Shown here piece after piece: positions 39,548 through 60,901 of a DNA stretch of 64,000 nucleotides. Within the stretch, counting starts at the first letter, position 1. Every line of letters starts with the position of its first letter. Origin of the DNA: Nitrospira defluvii. Its GTDB lineage: Bacteria > Nitrospirota > Nitrospiria > Nitrospirales > Nitrospiraceae. The translations under genes and the position numbers were made by a program. The stretch is taken from positions 1,178,001 through 1,242,000 of the forward strand of contig FP929003.1 of NCBI GenBank assembly GCA_000196815.1, in the 5' to 3' direction. The notes beneath the pieces were generated by a model that worked only from the letters and a program-made list of their open reading frames with translations, was not told the DNA's origin and made no database searches.

Positions 39548-41821
39548 GTGCAGGACGCTATGTATGACGGCACCGAGCAAGACCTGCTTCGCCTCCTCGC
39601 CTCACGGGCCGGTATTTCACCCGACTATCACGACATCGCCGGTACTCTCCATGTGACCAGTGACGAGACGCGTCGAGCCATTCTGTCCGCCATGGGTTTT
39701 CAGGTCGGATCGGGTGTGGTACTGTCTCAGGAGCTGACCGCCTTGGACGAGGCGCCCTGGCAGCAACCCTGCGATCCCATTCTCATTCTCCAGCAAGGGT
39801 ATGGCGCCACGCAGTGGACGTTTCGGCCTGCGCTGGAGGAAGGGGAGGAGCAACAAGTCGCGGTAGCCTGGAGTCTCATGGATGAAAAAGGGACCATCGT
39901 TCATCGTGACGAAGCCGGCCCCGGCCTGAATCCATGCGAGGTCCGTTCGCTGGCCGGGCGGCGCATGGTGCGCGTTGAACTGCCGTTGGTTCAGAACCTG
40001 GAACTCGGCTATTACGACTTGTCGGTCGGCACCATGGGCAGCAAGGTGGTGACCAGGGGGACGCTCCGCGTGGTCGTGGCCCCGCCGCATTGTTTTGTGC
40101 CGGAGGAACTGGCTCGGGGTGAAAAAGTATGGGGCTTGGCGGTGCAGCTCTATTCGTTACGGTCGCAGACCAATTGGGGCGTGGGCGATTTTACGGATTT
40201 GTCCCGGTTGGTCGAATGGGCAGGCAAAGAGCTGGGAGCCGGCATCATCGGACTGAATCCATTGCATGCACTGAAAAATTCTCGCCCCCACCATCTCAGC
40301 CCCTATTCCCCGACCAGCCGGTTATTTTTGAACGAGCTCTATATCGACCTCGATCGGCTTCCGGAGTATCACGCGTCGCCGGATGCGCAACGGCTGCGGA
40401 ACAGTGCAGAGTTTCAAAAGGAACTGGAGCAGGCGCGCGCGGCCGACCTGGTGGATTCAGAATCCGTGATCAAGGCGAAGCGCACAATGCTGGACCTCGC
40501 CTACCGACAGTTTCTGAAGGAGAACTATACGGGAACCGAACCGTCGCTGGAGCCGACCACTGCGCGAGGGTGGCTGTTGCACCGGTTTATTCGGGACGAA
40601 GGAGAATCGCTGGAGCGATTTGCGGTATTCCAGGTGCTGGAAGAGGAACGACGCCTGATCGAACAGTCGCTCAGGCTGTGGCCTGAGTGGCCCGACCAGT
40701 ACCGGACTCCCGATTCACCGGCGTTACGTGAATTTTCCAAACGGCATCGCAAGCGAGTCCGGTTTTTCCAGTATATGCAGTGGGTGGCGGCGGATCAGTT
40801 GAGAGCGGCCAACACCCGGGCGACACAGGCGCACATGACGGTCGGCTTGTACCCTGATCTCGCACTGGGAAGCGACCGAAATGGTGCGGAGGCGTGGATG
40901 CTGCAGGACGTCCTCGCGCTCGGTGCGGACTGCGGCGCGCCCCCGGACGCGTTTGCGCCGCAAGGGCAGAATTGGGGGTTCGCTCCGTTTCATCCGTTGC
41001 GCCTCAAGTCCACGGGCTATCGCTCGTTCATCGAGTTGCTCAGGAAAACGCTCCGGCAGGGCGGGGCGATCCGCATCGACCATGTGATGACGCTGTTCCG
41101 GCTGTTCTGGGTGCCTCGCGGGATGAGTGCGGAGGCGGGAGCCTATGTGCAGTATCCGGCCGAGGATCTGCTGCGGATTCTCGCGCTGGAAAGCCTGCGC
41201 GCGCAGACTCTGGTGATCGGAGAAGATCTGGGGACGGTGCCGGACTATGTGCGGGAACAGCTGGCGCGGTATAAGATTCTCTCCTATCGAGTCTTTTATT
41301 TCGAACGGAACTGGGATGGGTCCTGCAAGCCTCCGTCGGCCTATCCTGAGCAGTCCCTCGCGGTCGTCACGACACACGACCTTCCGACGCTGACCGGCTA
41401 TTGGACAGGGGAAGATATCCGATTGCGGGCAAAGCTCGGCATGTATGCGAACGAACAGGCCGTGCAGCAAGCCTTCGAGGAGCGCACGCGTGACCGGGGG
41501 CATATCCTTCGGGCCTTGAACGGGGCGGGGTTGTTGCCCTCCGGGGTGAGCGATCGGCCTGATTCTGTTCCGGTGATGACGTCCGCTCTGTGCCGCGCGA
41601 TCCATGTCTACCTTGCGACGTCGCCGGCCTGGGTTGTCATGGCCAACCTTGACGATGTGATCGGTGAAGTGACACAAATGAATCTCCCTGGCACCGTGGA
41701 CGCTTATCCGAACTGGTCGCGTAAACTGTCGCTGTCTCTTGAGGAGCTCCAACGGGATGAACGCGTACAAGCACTCGCCGCAGCCGTGTGTACTCTCCGC
41801 CCTTCGGCTGCAACTGCCTAA
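39548..41821 (+). CDS. malQ: 4-alpha-glucanotransferase
   Basis: MalQ transfers alpha-1,4 glucan segments and works on maltodextrin or glycogen. The protein opens with the N-terminal domain typical of bacterial MalQ, then the GH77 core with VWGLAVQLYSLRSQTNWGVGDF, LNPLHAL, the catalytic Asp in AIRIDHVM, and GEDLGTVPDYV. Its 757 residues are near the upper end of the family. I start at GTG 39548, 15 bases after GGAGG; ATG 39560 is an alternative. Confidence 0.94.
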   Translation: MQDAMYDGTEQDLLRLLASRAGISPDYHDIAGTLHVTSDETRRAILSAMGFQVGSGVVLSQELTALDEAPWQQPCDPILILQQGYGATQWTFRPALEEGEEQQVAVAWSLMDEKGTIVHRDEAGPGLNPCEVRSLAGRRMVRVELPLVQNLELGYYDLSVGTMGSKVVTRGTLRVVVAPPHCFVPEELARGEKVWGLAVQLYSLRSQTNWGVGDFTDLSRLVEWAGKELGAGIIGLNPLHALKNSRPHHLSPYSPTSRLFLNELYIDLDRLPEYHASPDAQRLRNSAEFQKELEQARAADLVDSESVIKAKRTMLDLAYRQFLKENYTGTEPSLEPTTARGWLLHRFIRDEGESLERFAVFQVLEEERRLIEQSLRLWPEWPDQYRTPDSPALREFSKRHRKRVRFFQYMQWVAADQLRAANTRATQAHMTVGLYPDLALGSDRNGAEAWMLQDVLALGADCGAPPDAFAPQGQNWGFAPFHPLRLKSTGYRSFIELLRKTLRQGGAIRIDHVMTLFRLFWVPRGMSAEAGAYVQYPAEDLLRILALESLRAQTLVIGEDLGTVPDYVREQLARYKILSYRVFYFERNWDGSCKPPSAYPEQSLAVVTTHDLPTLTGYWTGEDIRLRAKLGMYANEQAVQQAFEERTRDRGHILRALNGAGLLPSGVSDRPDSVPVMTSALCRAIHVYLATSPAWVVMANLDDVIGEVTQMNLPGTVDAYPNWSRKLSLSLEELQRDERVQALAAAVCTLRPSAATA

Positions 41822-41851
41822 ACTGTCCTCGCTGCGCGGCACGACATCGTG

Positions 41852-43003
41852 ATGAAAAGCCGGAATCAGGTGGTGCTGGCTATCGCCGCGATCCTCTTCC
41901 TCATCGTGATGGTGATGGAATGGATGTTCCCGCTGAATGTCGTCGGCGCATTCGGTTTTGTGTTGCCGATTTTGCTGGTGGCCACAGTCCGAAGTCGGCG
42001 GCTCATGGTGGTGACGCTCGCACTGTGCATCCTGGTGACATTTGTCGGTCTCTTCCAGCCGGGCAAGAAGCGCGAACGGTTCACCGCCGTCGTGTTTAAT
42101 CGCATTATGGTGGCCTGTGTGTTGACCGGGGTGGCCTACATCGGTGTGACATGGGAGGAGCGGAAAGCCCGCGAAGAAGCCGCCAAGGCTGCCCTGGCGA
42201 CGCAAACCGAACACCTGTTGTTGGCGAATACGCAGCTGGTCGAGATTAAAGACAAGCTGGCGCGATCAGAACGGTTGGCGGCCGTGGGGCAATTGGTGGC
42301 GTCGGTGGCGCATGAGGTCGGGACGCCGTTACATTCGATTGCCTGGCATGTGGAGGCGCTCGCGGAAGAGCCTGGTGTCACTCCTGCGATGCAGAAGCGT
42401 ATCGGTATCATCGATGAACAGTTGAATCGCGTGGTGCGGATCATTCAAGATCTCTTATCGTCCACCCGACAACGCAAGCCTGAGCCGACATGGTATCCGG
42501 CGGAACGCCTGATCGAGCCGGTCGTAGCGCTGATGGAACCGGGATACCATGCCAAGGGTGTGACGCTTCACACCGCGGTGGCGTCGGCTCTGCTGGTGTG
42601 GGCCGATGCCGAAAAGATCCACCAAGTGTTGGTCAATCTCCTGAGCAATGCACTCGCGGCCACAGGGGCGGGGGGGCATGTCACGGTCGCCGTGACCATT
42701 CGTCAAGCTTCCTCGGAGGAGATGGAGGGCGCGTCCTGCACCGGCCGGCCAGATCTCAGTACGGTGGTCACGTTGGTGGTGAGTGATTCAGGCTGTGGGA
42801 TGCCTCGGGAGGATGTCGAGCGAGCCTTTCAACCGTTCTTCACCACAAAGGCCGTGGGAAAAGGCACCGGGTTGGGCTTATTTCTGAGTCGGGAGGCTGT
42901 GTCTGCTCATGGCGGCCGTTTGACACTGGAGAGTGAGATCGGCAAGGGCACGACGGTGACCGTGGTGCTGCCTGGGCTGCCGTCGGATTCGGCTGTCGCA
43001 TAG
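41852..43003 (+). CDS. Membrane sensor histidine kinase
   Basis: The start ATG 41852 gives 383 residues. About four membrane helices fill residues 7-100, then a coiled segment (about 105-150), a HisKA domain with the phospho-His in SVAHEVGTPLHSI and an ATPase domain (VNLLSNALAATG, then GKGTGLGLFLSREAV). The sensing part is the membrane domain. It is followed after 13 bases by a sigma-54 regulator, its likely partner. Confidence 0.92.
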   Translation: MKSRNQVVLAIAAILFLIVMVMEWMFPLNVVGAFGFVLPILLVATVRSRRLMVVTLALCILVTFVGLFQPGKKRERFTAVVFNRIMVACVLTGVAYIGVTWEERKAREEAAKAALATQTEHLLLANTQLVEIKDKLARSERLAAVGQLVASVAHEVGTPLHSIAWHVEALAEEPGVTPAMQKRIGIIDEQLNRVVRIIQDLLSSTRQRKPEPTWYPAERLIEPVVALMEPGYHAKGVTLHTAVASALLVWADAEKIHQVLVNLLSNALAATGAGGHVTVAVTIRQASSEEMEGASCTGRPDLSTVVTLVVSDSGCGMPREDVERAFQPFFTTKAVGKGTGLGLFLSREAVSAHGGRLTLESEIGKGTTVTVVLPGLPSDSAVA

Positions 43004-43016
43004 GAGAAGGAGACGC

Positions 43017-44411
43017 ATGAGTCAGGCGAAGTTATTCGTAGTGGATGACGACGAGGCCGCTCGAACCTTGCTGGCGGAAGCGCTGGCGAAGGAGGGGTAT
43101 GAGGTTGAGGCCTTTTCCAGCGGCCAGGCAGCGGTGGAACGCGGCAAACAATCGCGGGCCGATGTCGTCCTGACCGACATCCGGATGGAGCAAGGCGACG
43201 GATTTCTTGTGTTGAAGGAGTTCAAGAAGTTCAGTCCGGACACCTCGATCGTCTTGTTGACCGCGTTCGGATCTCTGGAGGGTGCGATCGAGGCGATCAA
43301 GCAAGGAGCCTACGACTACCTGGCCAAGCCGTTTAAGAGGGACGAGATCCGTCTCGTCGTCCAGCGCAGTCTGGAGCATTGTCGCCTGGTGCGGGAAAAC
43401 GCCCGCTTTCGCGAAGATGCGCGCGCACGCGAACCCTGGTCACAGTTGGTGGGCAGCAGCCCTGCGATGCTGGAGGTGTACAAGCTGGTGGCCCGTGTTT
43501 CCGAGGGGCGCAGCACGGTGCTCATCGAAGGAGAAAGTGGAACAGGGAAAGAACTGATTGCGCGAGCTGTCCATTTGAACAGTCTGCGTCGCGACAAACC
43601 GTTCATTCCAGTCAATTGCGGCGCCTTGCCCGATCATCTCCTGGAGTCGGAAATGTTCGGGTATGAGAAGGGCGCGTTTACGGGCGCCGTCGGAGCCAAA
43701 GCCGGGCTGTTCGAGGCCGCCGATGGCGGTACGCTGTTTCTCGATGAGATCGGCGATCTCGGCCAGGCGCTTCAGGTCAAGCTCCTGCGGGTGATGCAAG
43801 AGCACGAGGTGCGGCGTGTCGGCAGCACGGCATCGGTGAAAGTCGATGTGCGCATCATTGCCGCGACCAATCGGGATTTGGCCACGCTCGTGAAGGAAGG
43901 CAAGTTTCGCGACGACTTGTACTATCGTCTGAACGTGGTGCGGATTGTCCTGCCGTCTCTGGCTGAGCGGCGTGAGGACATTACGATGCTCGCGCATCAC
44001 TTTCTGCAAAAATACGCCAAGCAGTCGTTGCATGTGAGAGGGTTTTTACCGGAAACGATGGCGCTGTTGAAGCGCTATCATTGGCCGGGGAATGTGCGTG
44101 AACTGGAGAATGCGGTGGAACGGGCGGTCTCGCTCAGCCATGGCCCGCTGTTGCTTCCCGAAGATCTCCCCGAGTCGATCAGGGTTGAGCCGGATTCAGG
44201 TGAGCTGCTCAAGGGGCCACCCGCCGAGGGGGATCAAGACGCGCTGTTGACCTTAGACGAGGTCGAGAAACGGCATCTGGCTCGGGTGCTTAAGGAGACG
44301 CGAGGCAACAAGGTCAAGGCGGCGAAGATTCTGGGGATCGATCGGCGAACGTTATATCGAATGGCGGAGCGATTCGGATTGGATTTCGGCGATGAGGCCG
44401 AGGAGAAGTAA
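43017..44411 (+). CDS. Sigma-54 response regulator
   Basis: The 464-residue regulator has a receiver domain with Asp in [13 protein letters not shown] (about D53), an AAA+ domain with Walker A GESGTGKE, the canonical GAFTGA loop, a LFLDEIGDL Walker B, and a C-terminal Fis-type helix-turn-helix ([20 protein letters not shown]). It is a second sigma-54 system independent of the NtrX-like one at 14950. Its genes and stimulus are unknown. Confidence 0.94.
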
Positions 44412-44418
44412 GACAACC

Positions 44419-44865
44419 CTACAATAGTCGAAGCGCATTCTTGAGCAGGCGAATTTCGTTCGCGGCACTTTGCGGCAGCGGTGTTTCTGCATCCTCCCAC
44501 GAATCGAATATCCCGTCTTTTCCGCGATGGAACACTTGCAGTCGCAATCGTGTGGTGCTGTCGTCCTGCGGGACGACCCGCGCCTCGACCCGAGTCTTCC
44601 CTACGCCGAATCTCCAGCGCAATAATCCGTTCCAAGGGCTTCTGATCTCCTGCCGCATTCCGGTCGTGATGTTGCCGGTGTCATCCTGGTCGACCGTATA
44701 GCCGCCTTGGGTCAGGACGTCGGACAGTGCCGTTTTCACCTGTTCGGCAGGAACTGGAAGTGTCACTTCCATCACATCGGGCTCCGGGGCGGGTGGGCCC
44801 CCCGCACATCCGGCGAGCGCTGCGACGAGAACCAGCGCCATGATGGCAGGGACGCGAGCACTCAT
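44419..44865 (-). CDS. Lipoprotein of unknown function, 148 residues
   Basis: A signal sequence ends at lipobox LAGC (Cys at about 20). The mature region is beta-rich with alternating strands (VMEVTLPVPAEQVKTALSDVL, then TRVEARVVPQDDSTTRLRLQ) and recalls BamC/DUF3568-type envelope lipoproteins, without certainty. Its start overlaps the end of the small RAM-domain gene by four bases, so the two are co-translated. Confidence 0.7.
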   Translation of the reverse strand: MSARVPAIMALVLVAALAGCAGGPPAPEPDVMEVTLPVPAEQVKTALSDVLTQGGYTVDQDDTGNITTGMRQEIRSPWNGLLRWRFGVGKTRVEARVVPQDDSTTRLRLQVFHRGKDGIFDSWEDAETPLPQSAANEIRLLKNALRLL

Positions 44866-45116
44866 TTCGGCTTGCCCTCCTGAAGGCGATAGACCATATG
44901 CGTATCTGTCTGATCGACACCGGGGATGGCGTGAATTTTCGCGAGCACCAGTTGGGTCAGTGCGTCCTGGTGGGGAATTTCAACGATGGTGAAGATGTCG
45001 GGCTTTCCCCAACAGGGGTCGATTTGTTTGATTTCCTTTATATCCCCAAGGGCTTTGACGACATCAGCGGTTTGGCCGGGATGAACGTTGATCAATACGT
45101 AGGCTCGGTCCGGCAT
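44862..45116 (-). CDS. Stand-alone Lrp/AsnC-type ligand-binding (RAM) domain
   Basis: This 84-residue protein is the C-terminal RAM domain of Lrp/AsnC regulators without the DNA-binding part: MPDRAYVLINVHPGQTADVV is the family start and TDTHMVYRLQ the end. Such stand-alone RAM proteins are thought to bind small molecules or to form heteromers with complete regulators. The lipoprotein gene follows with overlap. Confidence 0.85.
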   Translation of the reverse strand: MPDRAYVLINVHPGQTADVVKALGDIKEIKQIDPCWGKPDIFTIVEIPHQDALTQLVLAKIHAIPGVDQTDTHMVYRLQEGKPK

Positions 45117-45208
45117 GGAGTAAATCTCCCGTGAGGTGGTGGGGCGTCAACGTCTGCCAACGAATCGAAACCTAGCGGATTGCTCCGGATGAAGTCAACC
45201 GAATGCCC

Positions 45209-45230
45209 CCGGCTCGGGCAGGAGAGCCGG
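45209..45230. terminator. Candidate hairpin after the proline-rich gene
   Basis: CCGGCTC at 45209-45215 pairs with GAGCCGG at 45224-45230 around an eight-base loop. It lies 13 bases beyond the end of the minus-strand gene. No T-run follows. Confidence 0.35.
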
Positions 45231-45242
45231 CGTCGCGCGGTG

Positions 45243-46955
45243 TTACTTGGGAGCCACGATGACTTCTACTCTGTAGGTGTCGCCGACTATCGAAAGATCT
45301 GCTTCCAACCCTCGGGGGTTGCCCACTCGCCCGTCAGGATCGTAGATGAAGCACACCAACGTGGCTCCGTTCGGACGCCCGGAGTAATGGGCTTTGTCGG
45401 TGGCGATCTGCTCGGCGATGTCTCTGCTCGTTAATCCTGACCGAGTCTGTTTGACCACCACCACCGTTTTTTCCCAGTCGAGGAGGTAGCTCGTCCGGCG
45501 AGCACCGTCGGCATAGGGCGGAGTCCATTCTTCCGTCCCCACCTCATCGAATTGTAACCGGAGAAGTGCGTAAAAGAGGTCCTGCAGATCGTACTCGTCC
45601 GTGATCTCCAGTGTAGGCCGGTATTCTTTTCGCAGCCGCAGTTGTCGAGCGACCAGGTGGAAGCGCGCGCACATTCGGCGGAGTGTGTCGAGCGTTGCGC
45701 TTTCCGATTGATGATGGTTCCTATTCGTATCCGGCGGCGTTGTGAGTACCGTTGGTGTCTCTGGCGGTTTGACGGGAGATATGAACGGCAGTTCCGGTTT
45801 GGACTCAGGGACTGATGCGAGCGCGGGCATGGCTGGTGGGAGCGAAACCTCGGTTTGAACTTGGGGAACGGGCGGTCCGGGGTCGCGCGCTTGTTTTTCT
45901 GCTGCTATCTCGGGTGTGGCTTGGCTTGCCGGAATCACCGCAACGGGGGCTGGAGCTGGTTTTTGTTCCGGGATGTCTGTGGGCTTGGAGGCCTGTTGCG
46001 GCGTCGGAGGGGGCTCGATAGGAGCAGTCGGCACAGGTGCCGGGACGGGACTCATTCGTGGAATGGGGGGAATGGTTCTCGATGGAATCGTGGACCGCGC
46101 CGGCGCCATTGTCGGTAGTGGAGTCGGGGCGGTTTCGCCGCGCACTGTCTGCTCCGAGGGCGTTGTGCTATTCGTTGATGGCGCAACGACAACAGGTTCT
46201 GCGGGCAGTGATGGTGAAGCGGGCTGGGATGCCGGCGCAGTTTTCTCAGCCGGGAGCCCGAGGGATTCAGATGTTGCAGAGTGCAGTGGGGGTGATGGTG
46301 GTTGCGGGGGCAGGCGTTGTATCGATGTGTCGCGAATCGGATGTGAGGCGGTCCCAGGGATGACCGGTGGGGGGGCGGAAGTGCACGTGACGGGTGTTGT
46401 CATAACGATTGGAGCGATGGGCTGAGCAGGTTGGCTGACATTCGTCGTCGCTACTGCGGCGGTTGCCGGAGCGGTGGTCATACTGACGGTCGCGGGGGAG
46501 ACGGCGTTCGCCGCCTGGGATGGCGCGACTGGAACTTCGGGTTGACTTGGAGGAATTGCCGTCAGCGTGGGGCGTTCTCGGGCTGCCGGCGGAGGTGGCG
46601 CAGTTTCGGCCGGTGTGAGGCCCAAAAGCTCTGCTTTCTGATTCTCCAGCTGGACAATCAGTTCTTTGAGCAGAGTAGTGCTCTGTGCGGACTCCGTGCG
46701 ATTGCCGATTCGGAGCTTGTGATTCTTGTGGGCCTGGTATTCCGGCGACTTTTCACCGAACAGTCGCCGGATCGATTCCCGGAAGGAAAGTTCGGTTCTG
46801 GCGCGGACTGCGTCACGATACGGGAATCCATCTCTGCTCAGATCATCGATCTGTGAGCTCAGTTCACGCAACGTGGTGATGCCGCGGTTGAGTTCTTCGA
46901 TGGCGTTCTGTTTCGATCGGGCGCGTTGCGGTTCGCTTGCTTTCGCTCGTGCCAT
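45243..46955 (-). CDS. Proline-rich protein with C-terminal DpnII/MboI-type nuclease-like domain
   Basis: The 570-residue protein has three parts. Residues 1-113 are helical and resemble the N-terminal domain often joined to the nuclease-like module (TELSFRESIRRLFGEKSPEY). Residues 114-410 are a long Pro/Ala/Thr/Ser-rich linker with no fold. Residues about 425-570 match the REase-like DpnII/MboI family (LEITDEYDLQDLFYALLRLQ; CFIYDPDGRVGNPRG). However the usual acidic residues seem replaced: the typical MDFLL position reads TSYLL and VIEVK reads VVVVK. It is probably a catalytically inactive binding version. The next upstream gene is a single receiver protein. Confidence 0.75.
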   Translation of the reverse strand: MARAKASEPQRARSKQNAIEELNRGITTLRELSSQIDDLSRDGFPYRDAVRARTELSFRESIRRLFGEKSPEYQAHKNHKLRIGNRTESAQSTTLLKELIVQLENQKAELLGLTPAETAPPPPAARERPTLTAIPPSQPEVPVAPSQAANAVSPATVSMTTAPATAAVATTNVSQPAQPIAPIVMTTPVTCTSAPPPVIPGTASHPIRDTSIQRLPPQPPSPPLHSATSESLGLPAEKTAPASQPASPSLPAEPVVVAPSTNSTTPSEQTVRGETAPTPLPTMAPARSTIPSRTIPPIPRMSPVPAPVPTAPIEPPPTPQQASKPTDIPEQKPAPAPVAVIPASQATPEIAAEKQARDPGPPVPQVQTEVSLPPAMPALASVPESKPELPFISPVKPPETPTVLTTPPDTNRNHHQSESATLDTLRRMCARFHLVARQLRLRKEYRPTLEITDEYDLQDLFYALLRLQFDEVGTEEWTPPYADGARRTSYLLDWEKTVVVVKQTRSGLTSRDIAEQIATDKAHYSGRPNGATLVCFIYDPDGRVGNPRGLEADLSIVGDTYRVEVIVAPK

Positions 46956-47063
46956 GTGTCCTGTCCCTCTGTTGAGAAAAGTCTATCCAAGCGGGTGATA
47001 TCTGGCAAGAAATCCCTGCTTCTATCCGTGAGCCGGGAGGCAGGGACGGGCGGCGCGGGCGGG

Positions 47064-47558
47064 TTAGTCAACCCACTCGACATCGCCGTGGCCGGGCCGT
47101 GGCGCATTTTTCTGATCGGGAGCGGCGGGAGCACCGGCTAAGACCTCTCGGACCACCGACAACAGCGTTTCGCTTGTAAAAGGCTTCTTGAGAAAGGGTA
47201 ATCCCGCTCGTACGAGGCCGCGATCTTGTAGTTCAGAGCTCGGGCTGCCGGACATGAGCAGGACGCGGATCTCACGCTTGTCTTGCAGGAGCCGCTCAAC
47301 CATGTCGAGACCGTTCACGCGGGGATAAGGGTTCCTGTCGACGGAAAGTTGAAAGCCCGGCGGGGGTAGAAAGACATCGGCGATCACGAGGTGGATCGGG
47401 TCGGGGTGTTCGGCATAGAGCTTGAGCGCTTCGGCACTGCCCGGTGCCTGGAGCACCGTGTAGCCGGCGTCCCGCAAGGGTTTGGTACTGACAAGAAGGG
47501 CGCTGGGGTCGTCGTCGACTATTAGGATCGTCGAGAGCTGTTTGCGACCGGGGGCCAT
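47064..47558 (-). CDS. Single receiver-domain protein with unusual loop
   Basis: The 164-residue protein is one receiver domain: ILIVDDDPSALL, the phospho-Asp in LVIADVFLPPPG, then LLMSGSP and the Lys in LKKPF. A loop of about 15 residues (PPPGFQLSVDRNPYPRVNG) follows the Asp strand where other receivers have a short turn. The C-terminus is a flexible tail. With no output domain it probably acts by binding a partner. Confidence 0.88.
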   Translation of the reverse strand: MAPGRKQLSTILIVDDDPSALLVSTKPLRDAGYTVLQAPGSAEALKLYAEHPDPIHLVIADVFLPPPGFQLSVDRNPYPRVNGLDMVERLLQDKREIRVLLMSGSPSSELQDRGLVRAGLPFLKKPFTSETLLSVVREVLAGAPAAPDQKNAPRPGHGDVEWVD

Positions 47559-47595
47559 GGTGGACTCCTTTGTTCGGTGTCGGTATCCCGAGGCC

Positions 47596-48438
47596 TCAGA
47601 ATGGAGGGTGTTGCTCCTTCAATCGTTCGTATTCGCGTTGTTCGCAACCGCCATGCTTGGGGCGCAGGGATTCAGGGACCTCCGCGAAACGGATGGTGCA
47701 ATAGCGTTGGGCCTGGCGCCGCCGGTCGAGGTCTTGTTGTTCTTCGAGTTGCTGAAGTCGCACGGTGAGGTCGATGGCTGGAAGATCTTTGCCGGACGAA
47801 TTCTCTTGGCGTGATAGGATCGGTTCGTCTTCGCTGGATCTGGGGTGAGGTCCGTTCAACCGCCAGCGTGTCAACACATCGTCCTGATTGAACACAATGA
47901 TCAAGCCGAACTGGGAGTAGTCCCAGATCAGTTCTCCCTGCTCCGGGCGCGCCCAAATGGAGCGAGGCAGACCGTATCGATTCCAGATCTCGTCACGCAG
48001 CATACCCAGCCGTGGTGTGAGGTTCCGGATTGCCGTGATCTGCGCTTGTATCGGAGAAACGTCTTTCTGTTTTCCGGGACTGCTGTGTCTGGAGAGTGAT
48101 TCCAGCGCGGTGCGCGGGACGCGCAGCAATCGCCACACCGTGATAAGCCCCTGCGCGCAGTCAGTCGGATGCAGGTCTTCAAAAAGCATCTGCGTATCGA
48201 TGGGAAAGCCGCCGACTTCCTGGGTACGCGTGAAATTTTTGACCTCTTGGACGGCGGCGACGTATGCGCGTTGGCGCCCGTCCTCTACGTTAGGGGCGCA
48301 TGAAGCTCGCCCTGTAAAGAACACGTCATCCCCGAAATGAAAGAGCGCTTGCTCGGTCCAAAACGGACGATTCTCCCCGGCATGTGCCGTGGAGGTCACC
48401 GCAAGACTCAATAATGTGAGGAGAAGGTAGTGAGCCAT
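47596..48438 (-). CDS. Exported unknown protein, 280 residues
   Basis: The start MAHYLLLTLLSLAVTSTAHA at ATG 48436-48438 gives a signal peptide with AHA cleavage. The N-terminal 100 residues look folded (FTGRASCAPNVEDGRQRAYVA), the rest includes RYGLPRSIWARPEQGELIWDY, resembling surface proteins that predict lipoprotein assembly, and a helical, charged tail. No family recognised. It lies upstream of the receiver-protein gene with a 37-base gap. Confidence 0.65.
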   Translation of the reverse strand: MAHYLLLTLLSLAVTSTAHAGENRPFWTEQALFHFGDDVFFTGRASCAPNVEDGRQRAYVAAVQEVKNFTRTQEVGGFPIDTQMLFEDLHPTDCAQGLITVWRLLRVPRTALESLSRHSSPGKQKDVSPIQAQITAIRNLTPRLGMLRDEIWNRYGLPRSIWARPEQGELIWDYSQFGLIIVFNQDDVLTRWRLNGPHPRSSEDEPILSRQENSSGKDLPAIDLTVRLQQLEEQQDLDRRRQAQRYCTIRFAEVPESLRPKHGGCEQREYERLKEQHPPF

Positions 48439-48602
48439 ATGCGCGACTGGAGCAAGGGCGTTGCGGAACGGCACTCTTGCAGTATATCGCGTCAGGCAAA
48501 AAATACGACATAAGAGCGATTATGCACGTCCAGGGATTGTCGGACAGAGATTGTGAGTCGGATCCGGGGGCTGGACTGTAGAGCCAGGCAGCGGGGCAAT
48601 CG

Positions 48603-49292
48603 CTAGTAGTTCATGGAGGGAGTCAAATTTTCCCTGCCCGACGAGGCGGGGGCGGCGTGGGCCTTCGGCGGACTCATTTCGGTGCTCATGAGGCCGGACC
48701 CCGGCGGGCAAACGCTCTCCGGCGCGACAGCGCCAGGATTGCGCAGACCCCAGGCCGTTGCGAGGGCATGACAGGTGAGGAGGCTGACCCCTTCCTCAAT
48801 ATTGCTGAAGCGTTCGGTCGATTGAGCCTTTCCGCTCCATTCGATTTCACCGGTATTCACATCCACGGCTCTGAGGGCAACGGTGGCTGAATAGACCCGC
48901 TGGCTGTGAGGAAAGCCGCTACTCCAATCCAGAGCTTCCCAGGAACCCACCTCGGCATTGCTGAACACCACCAACCGAGCGCCGACGAGTTTGGCCATCC
49001 GCAGCACATCCGTTTCCAGGTACTGGTAGCCCGTGAGGCTCACTTTCTGGTCGGCCGCCGCCTGCAACACCTTTGTCTGGTCCACGACGAGCACGCCCTT
49101 CTTGAGCAACCATGTGCTCGCACTCTGAACCGTGTCCGGGCGTCCGCCCCAGACGACCGCTCTGGTGTAGGGGGAGGGGAGCTTGGAGTGGAAGCCATCC
49201 GTCGTCGGGGTTTCGATGAACGCGTAGCCGCGGCAACCCGTTGTTGCCAAGAAGAGGAGCGATAGATAGATGAGCAGATTCGCCGGTTTCAT
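48603..49292 (-). CDS. Lipoprotein of unknown function (CsgG-like region)
   Basis: The start is ATG 49290-49292 and the signal ends in lipobox TTGC (Cys at about 20). Residues 50-190 recall the CsgG-type fold: VLVVDQTKVLQAAADQ, then VYSATVALRAVDVNTGEIEW. The C-terminus is a disordered Pro/Ser-rich tail. It is likely an outer-membrane or periplasmic lipoprotein, with function unknown. Confidence 0.65.
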   Translation of the reverse strand: MKPANLLIYLSLLFLATTGCRGYAFIETPTTDGFHSKLPSPYTRAVVWGGRPDTVQSASTWLLKKGVLVVDQTKVLQAAADQKVSLTGYQYLETDVLRMAKLVGARLVVFSNAEVGSWEALDWSSGFPHSQRVYSATVALRAVDVNTGEIEWSGKAQSTERFSNIEEGVSLLTCHALATAWGLRNPGAVAPESVCPPGSGLMSTEMSPPKAHAAPASSGRENLTPSMNY

Positions 49293-49594
49293 GGGTCTCT
49301 TCGGAAGAGCATGTGCTGCGAACACGTCGGGAGCCTAATCAAGAGACCGTTTGGACGACGGTAGTATACATGAACAATTCTACCTACGTCTGCCCTATTC
49401 GTCGAGCGGGCTCCGTTCTCGACGCAGGCGAGGTCTGCTACCCTCACCTCCTTATGCGAATTGCCGAGGGTTCGTTCGGTGAACCGGCCGAGGTGTTGGA
49501 GCGGTTGGGGCGAATGCCGTGGCAGGCGGCAGGGATGCGGAATGTGCCTGGAAAAGCGGCGGTTCTGCTCACGGCTGACAGAACCGCCGCAGTC
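49293..49594. other. Intergenic region with small-gene terminator
   Basis: The 302 bases between the lipoprotein gene and the small membrane gene hold that small gene's terminator (49551-49590) and must hold the lipoprotein promoter. I see no other gene. Confidence 0.5.
49551..49590 (-). terminator. Rho-independent terminator of the small membrane gene
   Basis: GCGGCGGTTCTG at 49556-49567 pairs perfectly with CAGAACCGCCGC at 49579-49590. Read on the minus strand, the hairpin is followed by TTTTCC. It lies five bases past the stop of the 43-residue gene, so it is its transcription end. Confidence 0.8.
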
Positions 49595-49726
49595 TCACAG
49601 GATCTCGACCTGCGGAAAGGCGTTTTGCTCGCCTGTCTTCTGGGGCCGGTCAGCCATGATCATGAGCTGGATGGCAATCAGCGGAAGAAGCGCATAGCCG
49701 ATCAGGATCAACGGGAACTCAATCAT
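49595..49726 (-). CDS. Very small membrane protein, 43 residues
   Basis: The gene runs from ATG 49724-49726 to TGA 49595-49597 with AAAGGAG seven bases upstream and a strong terminator just after it. The protein starts MIEFPLILIGYALLPLIAI and has one membrane helix at about 4-27, then a polar tail (QKTGEQNAFPQVEIL). The complete expression unit makes it a real gene. It resembles small subunits or partners of membrane complexes, but I recognise no family. Confidence 0.75.
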   Translation of the reverse strand: MIEFPLILIGYALLPLIAIQLMIMADRPQKTGEQNAFPQVEIL

Positions 49727-50149
49727 GATAGAAACTCCTTTGTTATGCGGAGCCTCCACTGCAAGCTCGATACCGTGTCATGGTAAAGCTCTAACGCATT
49801 GATTCTTATAGCTACACAAGCTATAAGCTCAAAAACCAAGGTGGTCTTAGGCAAGAATCTTTGTAGAGAACTGTGCAATGAGAACATTTTGCGCTGAGCC
49901 GGAAGGCCTAAGGGTAGGAGGGCAAAAGGGAGATGCCGGTCGGGCAAGGGACCTTAATGTGGATAGCATCAATATGCAGGGGGCATAACGAAATGGGGGA
50001 AGCGAAAGCGGAACGCTGCCGGAAGTCCCTTCGCGCAGGCCCAGGTAGAGCAGGAGGATGATCGATGCACGGCCAGGAGCGAGCGCGAAAGAATACGTAA
50101 CCGCGTGGCGAGCGAGTGGCCCGAGCAGTCCCGGTTGAGGTGGAGATGG
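49727..50149. other. Region upstream of the small membrane gene
   Basis: About 420 bases carry no gene. A perfect inverted repeat (49805-49827) is listed separately. The region ends at the left end of the island. Confidence 0.5.
49805..49827. promoter_or_regulatory. Perfect inverted repeat, possible operator
   Basis: CTTATAGCT (49805-49813) and AGCTATAAG (49819-49827) are exact inverted copies around ACACA. It lies about 80 bases upstream of the small membrane gene start. It could bind a dimeric regulator. The motif does not match the CRP or FNR sites. Confidence 0.4.
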
Positions 50150-50193
50150 ATTGGTGCCCCCGACACGAATTGAACGTGCGACCCGCGGTTTAG
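50150..50193. repeat. Left attachment site (tRNA-Arg 3' fragment)
   Basis: These 44 bases are identical to 56552-56595, which include the 3' part of tRNA-Arg. After 50193 one base differs and similarity fades. It is the displaced tRNA end left by an integration event. Confidence 0.88.
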
Positions 50194-50375
50194 AAAACAG
50201 GCCTGGAGAGATTTTGAAACGCTCGGTGTATCAATGGTTTCCCCATTTTTTGCCGCCAAAACAGCTACTTGTGCGCGTTCCACTGATTCGATGGATTCGA
50301 GGGATATAGGTGGGTGTTGAAAGTTTTTAGCACAAATTTAGCACAGCAGTTTGGGTTGAACCCCTTCGCTAAGAC
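50189..50375. repeat. Island repeat A
   Basis: Contains blocks also seen at 51942-52074: ACAGGCCTGGAGAGATTTTG, GATTCGAGGG and the motif TTAGCACAAATTTAGCACAG (50327-50346), followed by a GGGTTGAACCCCTTC segment. It is likely an old integration remnant. The region 50194-50410 has no gene. Confidence 0.7.
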
Positions 50376-50410
50376 ATCTCGTAAGAAACAGCGATAACCC
50401 GGTTCGTAAT

Positions 50411-50701
50411 TTACTGACCTGCCTCAGAACAGTAGCCCAACTTTTGACACAGTATGACGAGTCTAAGTATCACGATGAAAGCGCCTATCGTGATGCCGGC
50501 GCCACCTGTCACATAGGACAACCTTATCGCAATCGGATGGCCAAATAGTTTTTTCGTCATGGCTTGCGAGTCAAACCACCACCACGACTCTGGCGGATCA
50601 ACCACACGCCATCTCCGCCATGTGGCATAGGTCCAAACAATACCTACAAGAACCATGAGTGCGCCCATGGCAAGATCTTGAAGTAGCCTTCCCCATGTCA
50701 T
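50411..50701 (-). CDS. Island cargo: small membrane protein, 96 residues
   Basis: The protein has two hydrophobic spans at about 10-28 (MGALMVLVGIVWTYATW) and 62-85 (VTGGAGITIGAFIVILRLVIL) with a central polar loop containing SWWWFD. It lies 29 bases after the Fic gene in the same direction and may be co-transcribed with it. No family recognised; it could be an effector or partner of the Fic protein, which is inference. Confidence 0.65.
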   Translation of the reverse strand: MTWGRLLQDLAMGALMVLVGIVWTYATWRRWRVVDPPESWWWFDSQAMTKKLFGHPIAIRLSYVTGGAGITIGAFIVILRLVILCQKLGYCSEAGQ

Positions 50702-50730
50702 TAAGCACCCTTAAACGATTCCCAGCCCCC

Positions 50731-51843
50731 TTATTCTGGGACTGGCGTGAGGCTATAACTTGTGTTTTTACTGCCACCTTCATTGCGAATGAGCACCCCT
50801 CGATCAATCAGTTCCTTGATGTCACGTTGGGCAGTGGGCATCGAACATTTCGCCAGCGCTGCCCATTTTCTCGCTGTCAGTTTGCCCTCAAACCCGTCGA
50901 GCAATCGATTCAACACTTTCCGTTGGCGTTCGTTGAGCACGAGACCGGTATGGCGTTGCCAGAACGCTGCCTTACGCAGCACATCCGCGCATCCCGTCTC
51001 GGCAGCCTCGATCGCCTTGGACACGCATTCAACAAACCACAGCATACGTTGCGTGATGTCGAGATCACCTTTCTGAGTGACTTCGAGCGAGGCGTAGTAC
51101 TCGGGGCGCTCGCGATGAATCTGCCCCGCCACGCTATAGAATCGCTGTGGAGACTGTTCCAAGCGTGCAAGACTCCGCTCTGCGAGCGCGCGTGCAATCC
51201 TGCCGTTCCCATCGTCGAAGGGATGGATGGTCACAAACCAGAGGTGTGCGATTGTTGCATGGAGGATGCCGTCGATCGTGAGGGGTTCATTCAGCCATGC
51301 GAGAAGCATTTCCATCTCAGCATCCACGCGCTCAGCTGGGGGGGCTTGAAAGTGAACCTTCTCACGTCCGACCGGACCTGAGCGCACTTGCATGGGACCA
51401 TCGGCATCGTCTCGCCACCCTCCGGTCTTTATCTTGCGCACACCGGAATAGCCAGTTGGAAACAGCGCGGCCTGCCACCCATACAGTCGCTCCCGAGTGA
51501 GAGGGGTATCCAGCTGGCTCGTCGCATCGAGCATCATCGCAACCATGCCCTCAGTGCGTCGGTCTTCTGGACCAAGGGCGGCCCCAGGAACACCAAGCCG
51601 GCGTGCTACCGAGGAGCGGACACTGGAGGGGTCCAATCGTTCGCCTTCTATTTCTGCACTTTTGACGGCCTCTTCCGTGAGAGCCAGAAGTTCCGCCTCA
51701 AGGCGCAGCTCGAAGCCCAATTGCATCATTTTGCCCAGGAGCCGACCTTGCTTCAGGTGGGCTTGGCCGAGCGGGTTGAGTAATGGCTCAGCATTCCAGC
51801 GGAAGTGTGGCCAATCGGGCAACTCCCAGATATGCACATTCAC
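50731..51843 (-). CDS. Fic-family protein with built-in inhibitory motif
   Basis: The 370-residue protein has an N-terminal domain of the type found in Fic proteins (DUF4172-like), a Fic core with the complete active site HPFDDGNGRIAR (His at about 207), and a C-terminal winged-helix-like part (AKCSMPTAQRDIKELIDRGV). Fic enzymes attach AMP or similar groups to target proteins. The motif SAEIEG at about 62-67 matches the class II autoinhibition pattern (S/T)xxxE(G/N), which blocks the active site. It is first gene of a two-gene cargo unit. Confidence 0.93.
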   Translation of the reverse strand: MNVHIWELPDWPHFRWNAEPLLNPLGQAHLKQGRLLGKMMQLGFELRLEAELLALTEEAVKSAEIEGERLDPSSVRSSVARRLGVPGAALGPEDRRTEGMVAMMLDATSQLDTPLTRERLYGWQAALFPTGYSGVRKIKTGGWRDDADGPMQVRSGPVGREKVHFQAPPAERVDAEMEMLLAWLNEPLTIDGILHATIAHLWFVTIHPFDDGNGRIARALAERSLARLEQSPQRFYSVAGQIHRERPEYYASLEVTQKGDLDITQRMLWFVECVSKAIEAAETGCADVLRKAAFWQRHTGLVLNERQRKVLNRLLDGFEGKLTARKWAALAKCSMPTAQRDIKELIDRGVLIRNEGGSKNTSYSLTPVPE

Positions 51844-52178
51844 CTCACATCGTGATTTGAATATACGCCTATTCGCATCACGATGCTAGCTATTCGCGTC
51901 ATCAGATGAGGCGAATTTGGACTCATTCGCATCATGGAGTCGTTTAGGAAGCAGGCCTAGACAGAATTTGAAACGCTCGATGGATTCGAGGGGTATTGGT
52001 GGGTTTTGAAAATTTTTAGCACAAATTTAGCACAGCGATTTGGGGTGAACCCCTTCACTGAGACAGCATTGCTTGACAGCGACTGCCTATCTTTTTTTTG
52101 TAACCTAACGGGCGGTCGTGCTAGCAGGAAGGAATATTTGCGTGCAGGCTCAGACTAAAGAATCCCTGAGAAGGAAAA
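51844..52178. other. Non-coding stretch in island
   Basis: The 335 bases hold repeat B (51942-52074) and no gene. AT content is visibly higher than in the flanking chromosome. Confidence 0.5.
51942..52074. repeat. Island repeat B
   Basis: Compared with repeat A it shares the opening GGCCTAGACAGAATTTG-type block, GATGGATTCGAGGG, TTAGCACAAATTTAGCACAG (52016-52035) and TGAACCCCTTCACTGAGAC, with a stretch of about 60 bases missing. Identity is high enough to imply recent common origin. Confidence 0.75.
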
Positions 52179-52538
52179 CTATTTAGCGAATCCTGATCGA
52201 GTGACAAGTTGAAGTAGTAAGTCACTCAGAGAGGCGTTGGCTACCCATTCCTCGGCAACCTGTATGTTTCGAAGGTACGCTTTCACTGCTGCTGATAACT
52301 CGCCGGCATGCGTGGGCTTCGATTCTGCCGCCGTGATTTTCACCGGCCTAACATCGACTAAGAATCCTGAACAGTTCCCAGGATCAGGGACTTCGAGCTT
52401 CAACAATCTTCCCTCAGAATCATATGCAACATAGCTGCCGCTCATGACATCAGGCGATTCTAAACCTCGTTCCGCGTCATGAGCCGATTTGAAAACAATA
52501 AGATCGCCGCCATCAACGACTATAATGGGAGCAAGCAT
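52179..52538 (-). CDS. Island cargo: unknown protein, 119 residues
   Basis: The protein starts MLAPIIVVDGGDLIVFKSAHD and shows alternating strands and helices, with no signal peptide or membrane span. The first 60 residues look like a compact beta domain. No family is recognised. It is more AT-rich than the chromosome and lies between repeats B and C. Confidence 0.6.
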   Translation of the reverse strand: MLAPIIVVDGGDLIVFKSAHDAERGLESPDVMSGSYVAYDSEGRLLKLEVPDPGNCSGFLVDVRPVKITAAESKPTHAGELSAAVKAYLRNIQVAEEWVANASLSDLLLQLVTRSGFAK

Positions 52539-52619
52539 TCGAACACCTATCAGCGTGATTTGTCAGTGGAGCTCTTTGGCTAAACACTAATCCTCCTACC
52601 TCCTCACACCGAAATAGCA

Positions 52620-53021
52620 CTACGTGCGTGGTTTATCTTTTGGAAGTTGTCCGGACCAAGCTCGCATCAGATCTTCAATCGTTCTAATCTTTGCTCGTTC
52701 CCAGGCATCCTGGGTGCCATGTTGTTGTTCGCGCTTACCGAGTTGATAACGAAGTTCTGACTCACTGTCTTCCGTGTGGGCTTGATAGAACAGCCACTTC
52801 AAAAAATTAACCGGCTTAATCGATTCCAGCAGTTTGTTAACAGTATCATTGGGTCGTAACAGTCCTGGGGACAGTTGATATTCGATCTCGATAAGTTGAA
52901 ATAATTCCATTACGGCTTGCTGCGGAAATTCTGACCAGAATGCCTCATAGGCGGCTTGAGGTTCTAGTTTTTCGCGATTACCAAACCGACTTCGGATGGT
53001 GTCGTGCCACTGTCCAAACAT
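52620..53021 (-). CDS. Island cargo: unknown protein, 133 residues
   Basis: The protein begins MFGQWHDTIRSRFGNREKL and is predicted all-helical, with many Trp, Glu and Gln residues. No family is recognised. It is 81 bases upstream of the 119-residue gene in the same direction and may be its partner. Confidence 0.6.
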   Translation of the reverse strand: MFGQWHDTIRSRFGNREKLEPQAAYEAFWSEFPQQAVMELFQLIEIEYQLSPGLLRPNDTVNKLLESIKPVNFLKWLFYQAHTEDSESELRYQLGKREQQHGTQDAWERAKIRTIEDLMRAWSGQLPKDKPRT

Positions 53022-53081
53022 ATTTAGTCAATACGCCTTGGCAATTCTCAAAAGAGTAATTTCGTAAGGGCTTGATTGAGC

Positions 53082-53197
53082 CGTGGTTTCCCCGATTTTC
53101 CCTGATAGTGGCTCAGTTTAGGCGCTGTCTATTGAGTCAATAGGTTCTGAATAGATTGAGAGGTTCTGACAACTTCTAGTACAAATCCAGCACACCA
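53082..53197. repeat. Island repeat C (degenerate)
   Basis: It shares GTGGTTTCCCC and GGTTCTGACAACTTCTAGTA-like parts with repeat A, and TAGTACAAATCCAGCACACC is a decayed copy of the paired TTAGCACA motif. It is older than copies A and B. Confidence 0.5.
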
Positions 53198-53218
53198 AAT
53201 TTCCTCGGGAGCCGTCAC

Positions 53219-53521
53219 TTACTCACGGATCACAACTTGGGACTTTGACCAACGTTCCCAACCAAATCCACACAGCAAACCAGCAAAGCTGTAGAGGAAA
53301 ACGTTCAGAAGAATAGAGATGCTCAGCGATATCAACGAACCTATTGTGATCTCCTCTCCTTCGCCCAGCAAAAGGACCCACGACGGCCATAAGTACATGC
53401 CGTACCTCGCGGCTACTGGAATTCGATTTATGTTCAAATACAGTTCAATGTACACAGACAGCAGCAGAAAGACGGGAATTGCACCACCTGCCAGTGCGAA
53501 CCATCTTACAACCTTGATCAT
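53219..53521 (-). CDS. Island cargo: small membrane protein, 100 residues
   Basis: The protein has two hydrophobic segments, at about 7-27 (WFALAGGAIPVFLLLSVYIEL) and 60-83 (ISLSISILLNVFLYSFAGLL). No family recognised. Together with the gene at 50411 it is the second small membrane protein of the cargo. Confidence 0.55.
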   Translation of the reverse strand: MIKVVRWFALAGGAIPVFLLLSVYIELYLNINRIPVAARYGMYLWPSWVLLLGEGEEITIGSLISLSISILLNVFLYSFAGLLCGFGWERWSKSQVVIRE

Positions 53522-54126
53522 CGCCGCCTCAGTCCAAAAGATGCGTCACCTGAATTCGTTCCACGGCTTCTCAACTGAATGGTTCCCATTCCTCAACGTC
53601 GGTTTTCGAATAAATGACTCATTGAAGTTCGCGGGGTGTTCCAGCTCCCCCTGTTCTGATCGTATCGCAGAACGCGGGGAATGCCTTCCAAACTTTTTTT
53701 TCGCGCACGGGTCAAAAACGAGCTGATTTTTGGTCGCTCCGTGTCTCCCCTCCAAACGATGCGCACAATTGCTGCTCTGAGCGCATGAAAGCGCACATAC
53801 GCCTCCTTCTGCTCACTTCCTTTTGCGTCTGAGCTGTCACAAACTTTGTCCTCTGCTGTCCCCTCGTGTCCCCTAGTGACCTCTTCCGGGGCCTTTGATT
53901 CGGTCCGGTGATTCGCCTAGGGTGAGACGAACGGGAACAGGGCTCACCAAGAGGTGCAGATGTCCGGATTGGAGCGCGTCACACAGCAACACCGTCGTCC
54001 GTCACCGGGAGACAAAGCCGGTCCGCGCCCAATGCCGGCAGGCTGGGGCGCGGACCGGAATGGCCCCCGTCTTGGTAACACGGGGGCGCTACCTACAGTG
54101 CTCCTTACAGGAGTTCGATAGGTTCC
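53522..54126. other. Island stretch without a clear gene; origin region
   Basis: A minus-strand open frame at 53546-53755 has no ribosome site or known family, and I do not call it a gene. The last part (54018-54087) holds two strong hairpins thought to be a replication origin. Confidence 0.45.
54018..54087 (+). other. Candidate rolling-circle replication origin
   Basis: Two hairpins stand side by side. The first pairs 54018-54030 (CCGGTCCGCGCCC) with 54046-54058 without mismatch, and its loop contains the palindrome TGCCGGCA. The second pairs GCCCCCGT (54063-54070) with ACGGGGGC (54080-54087) around CTTGGTAAC. They lie 40-110 bases before the replication-initiation gene, the usual site of a double-strand origin. 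Confidence 0.55.
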
Positions 54127-55137
54127 ATGGATTTGGCATTCATCCTCTCGATAGATTGGCTGGCGTTTACAGTGCTGGCCAGCAAACCCTCAAGAGGCCA
54201 TGAAGGTCCTGGGTGGAGACTGGAGTCGAGGCAAAGGGGGTTTTCGAGGCTATCCCCTCTCGTGGATTAAGACGGATGGACTGCGCGGAGTGGGGAAGCT
54301 TGGGACGAATGCTCCGAGGCCTCCGAATGAGATCCATGTGGATCTTTCGAGTGGATTGGTTTCTGCCCTGACTCTCGATCAGATTCGAGTCCTGCTCCCG
54401 TGGGTGCAGCACAACAAGGGCATGTCACCCGCATCGACTGTGCGCTCGATGACCGATCCGCAACCGTCTCAGTCTCAACGGTTCGAGAGGCCGTGTCTGC
54501 CGGTCAGTGCGTGACGCGTGCGGCACAGGTCAAACACTTCGTCTTGAACCTGACGCACGGGACGGGAGCGACGACCGGCGAAACCCTGTATTTCGGGAGC
54601 CCGCAGAGCCAGACTCTCCTGCGCATCTATGACAAGCGATTGGAACTTCAAAGCAAGGGGCAGGAGAACTGGCAAGACTATGGGACTCGGTGGGAATTGG
54701 AATCCAAGAAGGATCGAGCGCAACAGTGTGCCCGTGCATTAGCCATGGTAGACGAAGCCGACTGGAAGGAGTTCGTGATCGGCTTGCTCAGGTCCTATGT
54801 GGATTTCCGGCAGATCTCGAAGGATGCCGAGGATGAAGAACGATACTGGGCTCCAGTCTTGGAGTGGTACGCCCTTCTGACGGAGGGATTTCAAAAGGGG
54901 CGATTAGCCCAGGAAACGCAGGTGCAGACCCTGCAAGATGCGAAACGATGGGTGAGCGACACCCTGACGCCAATGCTGGCGGTCATATGTGCCACCCCTG
55001 GAAGGGAAGAATGGCTACTAAACGAAATTGTCAGGGGCATCTCTCGGTGGAAAGACCGGCACCGGAATTTGCTCAAACAGCCACCCACTCGGTTTCACAC
55101 GTCGTCTGCCGGCGGGAACGCGGGCAGTCCATGTTAG
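54127..55137 (+). pseudogene. Replication-initiation factor, frameshifted
   Basis: The family (replication initiation factor, RstA/Rep-type) reads across three segments. Frame 1 from ATG 54127 gives SIDWLAFTVLASKPSR; frame 2 (about 54197-54395) gives LGGDWSRGKGGFRGYPLSW and EIHVDLSSG; frame 1 from about 54410 gives GHVTRIDCALDD and on to 55137. Two compensating frameshifts break an otherwise complete protein of about 335 residues. Rep relatives start rolling-circle replication. Unless translation slips at both sites, the element cannot replicate with this gene. Confidence 0.8.
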
Positions 55138-55145
55138 GGGGACTG

Positions 55146-55167
55146 GGGGTGTCGAGAGACTCCCCCG
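55146..55167. terminator. Hairpin between rep and the HTH gene
   Basis: GGGGG and CCCCC (outer) with inner GTC/GAC around GAGA form a hairpin that overlaps the end of the rep reading frame. It may be a transcription stop or a signal of the element. Confidence 0.4.
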
Positions 55168-55491
55168 GTGTATCTGCATATGCTTACCGTCAAAGAGCTC
55201 TCGGCTTGGCTCAATATCAAGCCGTCCACACTCTACCTCTGGGTCTCACAGAACAAAATCCCGTGCCGCCGTATTCATGGCCTCGTCCGGTTTGAACCTG
55301 AGGCGATCCAAGCTTGGCTGGACAGCTTCTCTCCCACCTCCCCTGCAAAACCCCCTCGGTCTTCCCGGAAGAGCTCTGAGGACGTAGACCACCTGATTGC
55401 GGCCGCCAAACATGCCGCCTATACTTCCCGCCACGGGGAAACCATCACACCGAGCCCACGCACGAAGGAGGAGCAGCATGGGGCTCGTTAA
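55168..55491 (+). CDS. Excisionase-like helix-turn-helix protein
   Basis: The protein begins MLTVKELSAWLNIKPSTLYLW at ATG 55180, or with four extra residues at GTG 55168. The first 55 residues form a MerR/excisionase-type HTH that ends in VRFEPEAIQAWLDSF. The rest is a disordered, basic tail. It overlaps the integrase start by 14 bases, the typical layout of an excision control protein with its integrase. Confidence 0.83.
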   Translation: MYLHMLTVKELSAWLNIKPSTLYLWVSQNKIPCRRIHGLVRFEPEAIQAWLDSFSPTSPAKPPRSSRKSSEDVDHLIAAAKHAAYTSRHGETITPSPRTKEEQHGAR

Positions 55492-56548: not shown

Positions 56549-56551
56549 AAA

Positions 56552-56595
56552 ATTGGTGCCCCCGACACGAATTGAACGTGCGACCCGCGGTTTAG
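56552..56595. repeat. Right attachment site
   Basis: This 44-base copy of 50150-50193 overlaps the 3' part of tRNA-Arg, so the tRNA stays intact after insertion. Confidence 0.88.
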
Positions 56596-56630
56596 GAAAC
56601 CGCTGCTCTATCCAACTGAGCTACGGGGGC
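56554..56630 (-). tRNA. tRNA-Arg (anticodon CCT)
   Basis: A 77-base cloverleaf read on the minus strand, with encoded CCA. The acceptor stem GCCCCCG pairs with CGGGGGC. The anticodon stem GCGGT/ACCGC holds TTCCTAA, so the anticodon is CCT (for AGG). It is the integration target of the island. Confidence 0.97.
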
Positions 56631-56680
56631 GTGGGGATACGATACTGAAAGTGAGGAGGATTGTCTACCTAGGTGACGCG

Positions 56681-56711
56681 CCTCCGAAGGGGCCGTGGCC
56701 ACCTTCGGAGG
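56681..56711. terminator. Hairpin after lipoprotein gene
   Basis: CCTCCGAAGG (56681-56690) pairs exactly with CCTTCGGAGG (56702-56711). It lies 28 bases past the lipoprotein stop and before tRNA-Arg, both on the minus strand. There is no T-run, so strength is uncertain. Confidence 0.5.
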
Positions 56712-56739
56712 TGAGTCGATCCTAAGAAGCGAACGGATG

Positions 56740-57150: not shown

Positions 57151-57231
57151 TGAGGAATCCTCCTTGATCAAGAGCGATGGGCGCACAGTAGCATAAACCC
57201 TCTCTATCTGGAAACACCTCCGGACGGTCGT

Positions 57232-58602: not shown

Positions 58603-58606
58603 GGGA

Positions 58607-60897: not shown

Positions 60898-60901
60898 CGG
60901 G

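Follow-up and report, generated by a model that had tools for sequence, protein, structure and literature searches.

How can a domain of the nuclease type be retained after the acidic residues of its active site have been replaced, and what would it do in the cell? The question is raised by an open reading frame of Nitrospira defluvii, located at positions 45243..46955 (minus strand, stop codon included) of the window, i.e., the whole stretch of 64,000 nucleotides of contig FP929003.1 that was analysed. The frame is a real gene, as the earlier sequence-only reading of this DNA had assumed, and its product of 570 amino acids is here designated PSN (pseudonuclease).

Domain organisation and predicted fold of PSN

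The C-terminal part of PSN had been assigned to the DpnII/MboI nuclease-like family. Based on Pfam profile searches, residues 424-570 match PF18742 (DpnII-MboI; E value 1.8e-51) with 174.1 bits, far over the cut-off of 27, and the match spans positions 2-150 of the 150 positions in the model. This was the sole match in PSN when Pfam and NCBIfam were searched; NCBIfam holds no model for either PSN or the intact paralogue encoded in the same genome. A sequence search of the PDB with PSN returned no relative, its sole match being a chance one to the Pro-rich arm described below. An AlphaFold2 model based on an alignment of 54 relatives predicts a helical bundle at residues 10-110 (46626..46928, minus strand) and an alpha/beta domain at residues 411-570 (45246..45725, minus strand), mostly with pLDDT values above 90. 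The latter comprises the PF18742 domain and a leading helix, an assignment based on the Pfam match, the model, a fold search and dN/dS. Residues 115-410 (45726..46613, minus strand) have pLDDT values largely near or below 50 and are predicted to be disordered. This stretch of 296 residues, which is rich in Pro, Ala, Ser, Thr and Val and includes 76 Pro, lies between the two folded parts and corresponds to the Pro-rich arm of about 300 residues that had been described. The suggestion that the N-terminal part is the family's companion domain receives moderate support from a distant match (hhalign E value 4.7e-5, probability 68%) to the N-terminal domain of solitary PF18742 homologues.

Pairwise dN/dS values were 0.05-0.12 for the N domain, 0.05-0.20 for the C domain and 0.42-0.74 for the arm, which indicates strong purifying selection on each of the folded domains but not on the arm. 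The length of the arm also varies, from 42-115 residues in most early branches of the family to 170-307 residues in the majority of main-clade genera. The arm of PSN includes the motif RPTLTAIPP at residues 128-136 (46548..46574, minus strand), at a set distance past the helical domain in many relatives. Similar motifs (RPxLTLVPP-like) occur in 61 of 93 arms, compared with 16.5 expected in shuffled arms, a count that is descriptive, as the pattern was picked by eye, post hoc, on the same sequences. Most of the matches fall 20-29 residues into the analysed stretch, and this fixed position appears to be a stronger hint than the count.

The predicted model of the C domain contains the elements of the PD-(D/E)xK core in their usual order (H454-468, E472-477, E487-492, E497-503, H510-524 and E532-538), and the same order is present in the predicted fold of the intact paralogue. 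In the fold search with the PSN domain, the best nuclease matches were BamHI and BstYI (126-131 residues aligned) with a Z score of 7.8, which is middling on the scale of the tool itself. A Foldseek search of the PDB with the model of the paralogue gave no match at an E value below 0.001, the best nuclease again being BstYI, and a fold search among viral proteins gave weak PD-(D/E)xK matches only, none of them below 0.001. Taken together, the profile match, the order of elements and the run of PD-(D/E)xK entries agree in predicting a PD-(D/E)xK fold for this domain. PSN would share this fold with restriction enzymes of the BamHI/BstYI/BglII type, although the identity is only about 10%, and PSN has neither a restriction-modification context nor their acidic site.

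Loss of the catalytic residues

The catalytic columns were read from an alignment with active-type homologues. The column of the catalytic Asp is occupied in PSN by Ser489 (45489..45491, minus strand), that of the Glu by Val500 (45456..45458), and that of the Lys by Lys502 (45450..45452), in line with the original proposal that the acidic residues had been lost and the Lys kept. Compared with active PD-(D/E)xK nucleases, both the Asp of strand 2 and the Glu of the E-x-K motif in strand 3 are therefore missing and the Lys is present. The orthologue set covered 19 genus-level groups within the family of Nitrospira relatives and amounted to 96 copies. The reference set comprised 26 solitary homologues, namely two paralogues from the genus, including the one in this genome, and 24 proteins whose genomes belong to many other phyla. 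A complete D..E.K set was found in none of the 96 orthologues and in 25 of the 26 solitary proteins, which excludes chance. The latter base rate was obtained with homologues gathered by peptide patterns that are conserved but lie outside of the catalytic strands. The sole non-canonical protein among the 26, from a Lysobacteraceae bin (L183), has a degenerate set of Asn, Asp and Lys. The acids have not moved to neighbouring positions of the Asp strand either: none of the 84 main-clade copies has an acidic residue anywhere across positions 486-492, nor is column 500 acidic in any of them, and Lys502 is kept in 82 of the 84. Neither of the two outcomes that had been named in advance as refuting the proposal, acids at shifted positions or no match to the nuclease family, was obtained. 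The residue that replaces Asp varies among orthologues (Thr, Ser, Ala, Met, Arg, Gly or Val). PSN thus combines the loss of catalytic residues relative to active-type relatives with retained purifying selection, as befits a pseudonuclease, and we strongly infer from the alignments that catalysis is absent.

The solitary proteins, which include the paralogue and proteins from Hydrogenophaga, Undibacterium, Xanthobacter, Caulobacter, Shewanella and others, share the whole domain with PSN, have the same order of helices and strands, and in some cases carry a related N-terminal helical domain. In contrast to PSN, they keep D..E.K (25 of 26), are only 250-290 residues long, have no long arm, and are scattered instead of being fixed at one locus. 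In six active-type proteins (L159, L163, L165, L173, L174 and L201), a Cys-rich, zinc-ribbon-like domain (CxNGH...CxxCG) takes the place of the N-terminal helices, and Candidatus Scalindua rubra (L199:5212-6457) has a PF18742 gene that is divided between two reading frames.

Among the orthologues, 12 early-branching sequences keep either the Asp (g3, g7, g8, g11, g12, g13b and g18) or the Glu (g2 and g10), and never Asp and Glu together with the Lys as a canonical set. When the domain tree was built with the three catalytic columns removed, the orthologues formed one clade apart from the solitary proteins (support 100/100). In a second tree, computed from the products of the nearby kinase, NtrC and malQ genes and independent of PSN itself, genera with only the Asp and genera with only the Glu are interleaved, and at least four changes at the Asp and at least two at the Glu are needed. 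Catalysis has probably decayed stepwise, in several lineages, and an ancestor with both residues followed by several separate losses would be the simplest reading that admits losses only. Given a parsimony count of 2 on the latter tree, the Glu may alternatively have been lost a single time and regained in two genera. Genus g13b (L084, L086) has two PSN copies, the syntenic one without Asp and Glu and another located elsewhere in which the Asp is kept and the Glu lost. A similar evolutionary pattern, that of repeated pseudonuclease origin, has been reported for the fungal RNase II pseudonucleases Ssd1/Dis3L2, in which the catalytic signature was lost at least four times and a nuclease-independent function and other regions were conserved (PMC8097288). 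Those proteins differ from PSN in being eukaryotic, in having the unrelated RNase II fold, and in having a known RNA-binding function.

Genomic place of the gene and of its relatives

PF18742 was found in 146 of 175 genomes and in 18 of the 22 genera of the family. Beyond the family, by contrast, only 8 genomes in the sample of the phylum have it. PSN is essentially a single-copy core gene that occupies one conserved chromosomal place in most genera of the family. Directly downstream lies a gene for a stand-alone Lrp/AsnC ligand-binding domain protein (44862..45116, minus strand; profile match; 54 of 55 syntenic loci), followed by one for a small putative lipoprotein (44419..44865, minus strand; 49 of 55 loci). 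Convergent to these are genes whose profile matches identify an NtrC-type sigma-54 response regulator (43017..44411, plus strand) and a histidine kinase (41849..43003, plus strand), each present at 54 of the 55 loci, and malQ is found at all 55. In the window, the block formed by malQ, kinase and NtrC on one side and lipoprotein and AsnC-domain protein on the other extends over 39548-45116; it is found family-wide, also where PSN is absent. Because g20-g22 and some reduced genomes have no PSN orthologue, the gene is not essential family-wide. Genera g20 and g22, as well as two reduced genomes of g17, have the block but not PSN. PSN thus appears to have joined a block that was already in place and to be dispensable at times, and its neighbours are not necessarily its partners. 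A functional partnership with the AsnC-domain protein, which had been considered, is weakened by the same observation.

Upstream of PSN lies a gene for a single receiver-domain protein (47064..47558, minus strand), which 20 of the 55 loci have there in the same orientation as PSN. The odd loop that the sequence-only reading had noticed in this protein is consistent with the finding that PF00072 is matched in two stretches, the match being split by a Pro-rich inserted loop past the phospho-acceptor region. Further upstream, an apparent island (49313-56630) contains a gene for a Fic-domain protein (50731-51843) and one for a phage-type integrase (55397-56548) that lies beside a tRNA-Arg (56554-56630). 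The island parts the PSN operon from a DUF4340/ABC_transp_aux transporter cluster (57232-61870), which in other genera is found at a shorter distance upstream. No cognate DNA methyltransferase is encoded near PSN, the neighbours being the kinase, NtrC, lipoprotein, AsnC-domain and receiver genes and envelope-type genes, and no Argonaute was found among the neighbouring genes scanned. The sigma-54 promoter consensus gave 7 matches in the window, compared with 10.7 expected, none of them within the operon region. Scans for promoters and terminators over 44300-49600 gave no excess over chance, and an Rfam search over 41000-57500 returned only a tRNA.

The second PF18742 gene of this genome (L118:7804-8595) encodes the motif MDFLL...VVELKK with Asp, Glu and Lys intact. 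Its low GC content at third positions (0.45) and the phage-type integrase gene about 2.4 kb away make it consistent with an island. It adjoins a gene (8641-9426) with weak similarity to nucleoside 2-deoxyribosyltransferases, with the integrase gene (10948-12117) nearby, and the unit as a whole (L118:7804-12117) looks like a mobile, possibly defence-related one. Within the genus, the intact paralogue was found in G000 and G024 only. Among the PADLOC models, PSN is best matched over residues 417-567 by Aga_Helical-REase (E value 3.2e-22), an Argonaute-associated class II model; PSN differs from that system in having no adjacent Argonaute, in the loss of its catalytic residues, and in being a core gene and not an island gene. 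Two occurrences are likely due to misbinning or mislabelling, namely a Nitrospira-type pseudonuclease in a bin assigned to 'Phycisphaerales' (L185) and a contig with the Nitrospira paralogue labelled Nitrosospira (L153).

A probable non-cutting role for PSN

Conservation of the C domain was compared between orthologues and solitary proteins using one sequence per genus, with mean identities matched at 0.54 and 0.58, respectively. Positions 455, 473, 480, 482, 483, 489, 493, 500 and 527, among others, are relaxed in the orthologues. At the same time, R437, R440, E444, G507, R543, G545, E551, E564 and K570 have become invariant or nearly so, and R442, R446, D453, D456, D459, T504 and D520 are conserved or nearly invariant in the dead and the active-type sets alike. 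The relaxed surroundings of the old active site, together with the newly conserved positions, argue that the function has changed and that the binding cleft was not simply kept as it was, despite the residues conserved in both sets.

We lean towards the view that PSN is a domesticated pseudonuclease which would act as a two-headed, non-cutting tether. An active-type solitary PF18742 protein, with a helical and a nuclease domain as in the intact paralogue, would have settled upstream of the existing AsnC-lipoprotein/NtrC-kinase/malQ block. It would have gained a role that needs no cutting and would then have shed its catalytic residues stepwise, and during this loss the linker between its domains would have lengthened in most of the main clade. 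In the present-day protein, the C-terminal pseudonuclease head may dock on nucleic acid or on protein, perhaps on itself as a dimer, and the helical head may dock on a second partner, with the disordered Pro-rich arm and its at least one recurring short motif giving reach. The odds of the ligand of the C-terminal head being nucleic acid or protein are about equal, with nucleic acid slightly favoured by the strong retention of Lys502 across the main clade. As for the history as a whole, it would be that of a solitary, probably defence-related nuclease fold captured once in the ancestor of most genera for a housekeeping role, which lost catalysis several times independently and became a long-armed tether, with intermediates that have only the Asp or only the Glu still living, i.e., a bacterial parallel to the fungal Ssd1. 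This extended scenario we regard as a close call that falls slightly on the doubtful side.

Should the head keep its DNA cleft along with Lys502, PSN might be a sequence- or structure-specific DNA binder that binds without cutting, as the sequence-only reading had proposed for the domain, a tentative reading to which we would give somewhat less than an even chance. It is consistent with the retention of the Lys, with the residues that are (nearly) invariant in dead and active-type sets alike, and with a fold resembling DNA-bound BamHI and BstYI. However, the columns of S480, R473, A482, G483 and H527, which are near the catalytic motifs and strict in the active-type set, are relaxed, and the net charge of the C domain is slightly negative; as its median of -3 is the same in active-type homologues, charge does not strengthen the case for DNA binding. 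ERCC1 and Eme1 are subunits of dimerisation and docking to XPF and Mus81, and a pseudonuclease fold that serves as a protein-protein scaffold of this type, with no role in nucleic-acid binding, is a possible reading that we hold still more loosely. In its favour, the newly invariant positions lie away from the old motifs, the arm carries a motif, and most genomes have no active PF18742 partner, but Lys502 and other residues of the old site remain conserved.

It is improbable that PSN antagonises active defence nucleases of the PF18742 family or serves as their immunity partner, either as a dominant-negative form or as a decoy. This genome does have the intact paralogue (L001/L118) near an integrase gene, but the restriction of that paralogue to two genomes of the genus is at odds with a PSN that is near-universal and vertically inherited. 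We consider it more improbable still that PSN remains a nuclease with a rearranged site, in which the Glu would be replaced by an acid at position 515 (K+13, in the helix after strand 3) and the Asp by another residue. An acid at K+13 is the location of the migrated Glu in some restriction enzymes of the Ecl18kI/Cfr10I type. In the main clade, a fraction of 0.95 has an acid at position 515 and 0.99 at position 512, compared with 0.73 and 0.50, respectively, of the solitary homologues; the early branches that keep the Asp are mostly acidic at 515, where the acid might compensate for their loss of the Glu. The main clade cannot compensate in this way because its Asp is absent, and the lack of acids along the Asp strand, along with the varied replacing residue, leaves no conserved substitute; moreover, Lys502 itself is lost or replaced in several early branches that keep the Asp. 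That PSN is a decaying pseudogene or an annotation artefact, for which the lost catalytic residues and the fast-evolving arm might be cited, can be dismissed, given open frames in all orthologues listed, conservation across 18 genera, and a dN/dS of about 0.05-0.2 in both folded domains that refutes it.

The orthologues of PSN provide, at one locus, a clean natural series from an active-type through a half-broken to a dead PD-(D/E)xK domain, which makes the order of events in the conversion of an enzyme to a non-enzyme directly testable. Among the papers in the library searched, none was found to use the name DpnII-MboI. To annotate a PF18742 match in the Nitrospira family as a restriction enzyme would be wrong. 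With PSN, a near-universal and as yet uncharacterised core gene is named in a bacterial family that drives nitrite oxidation.
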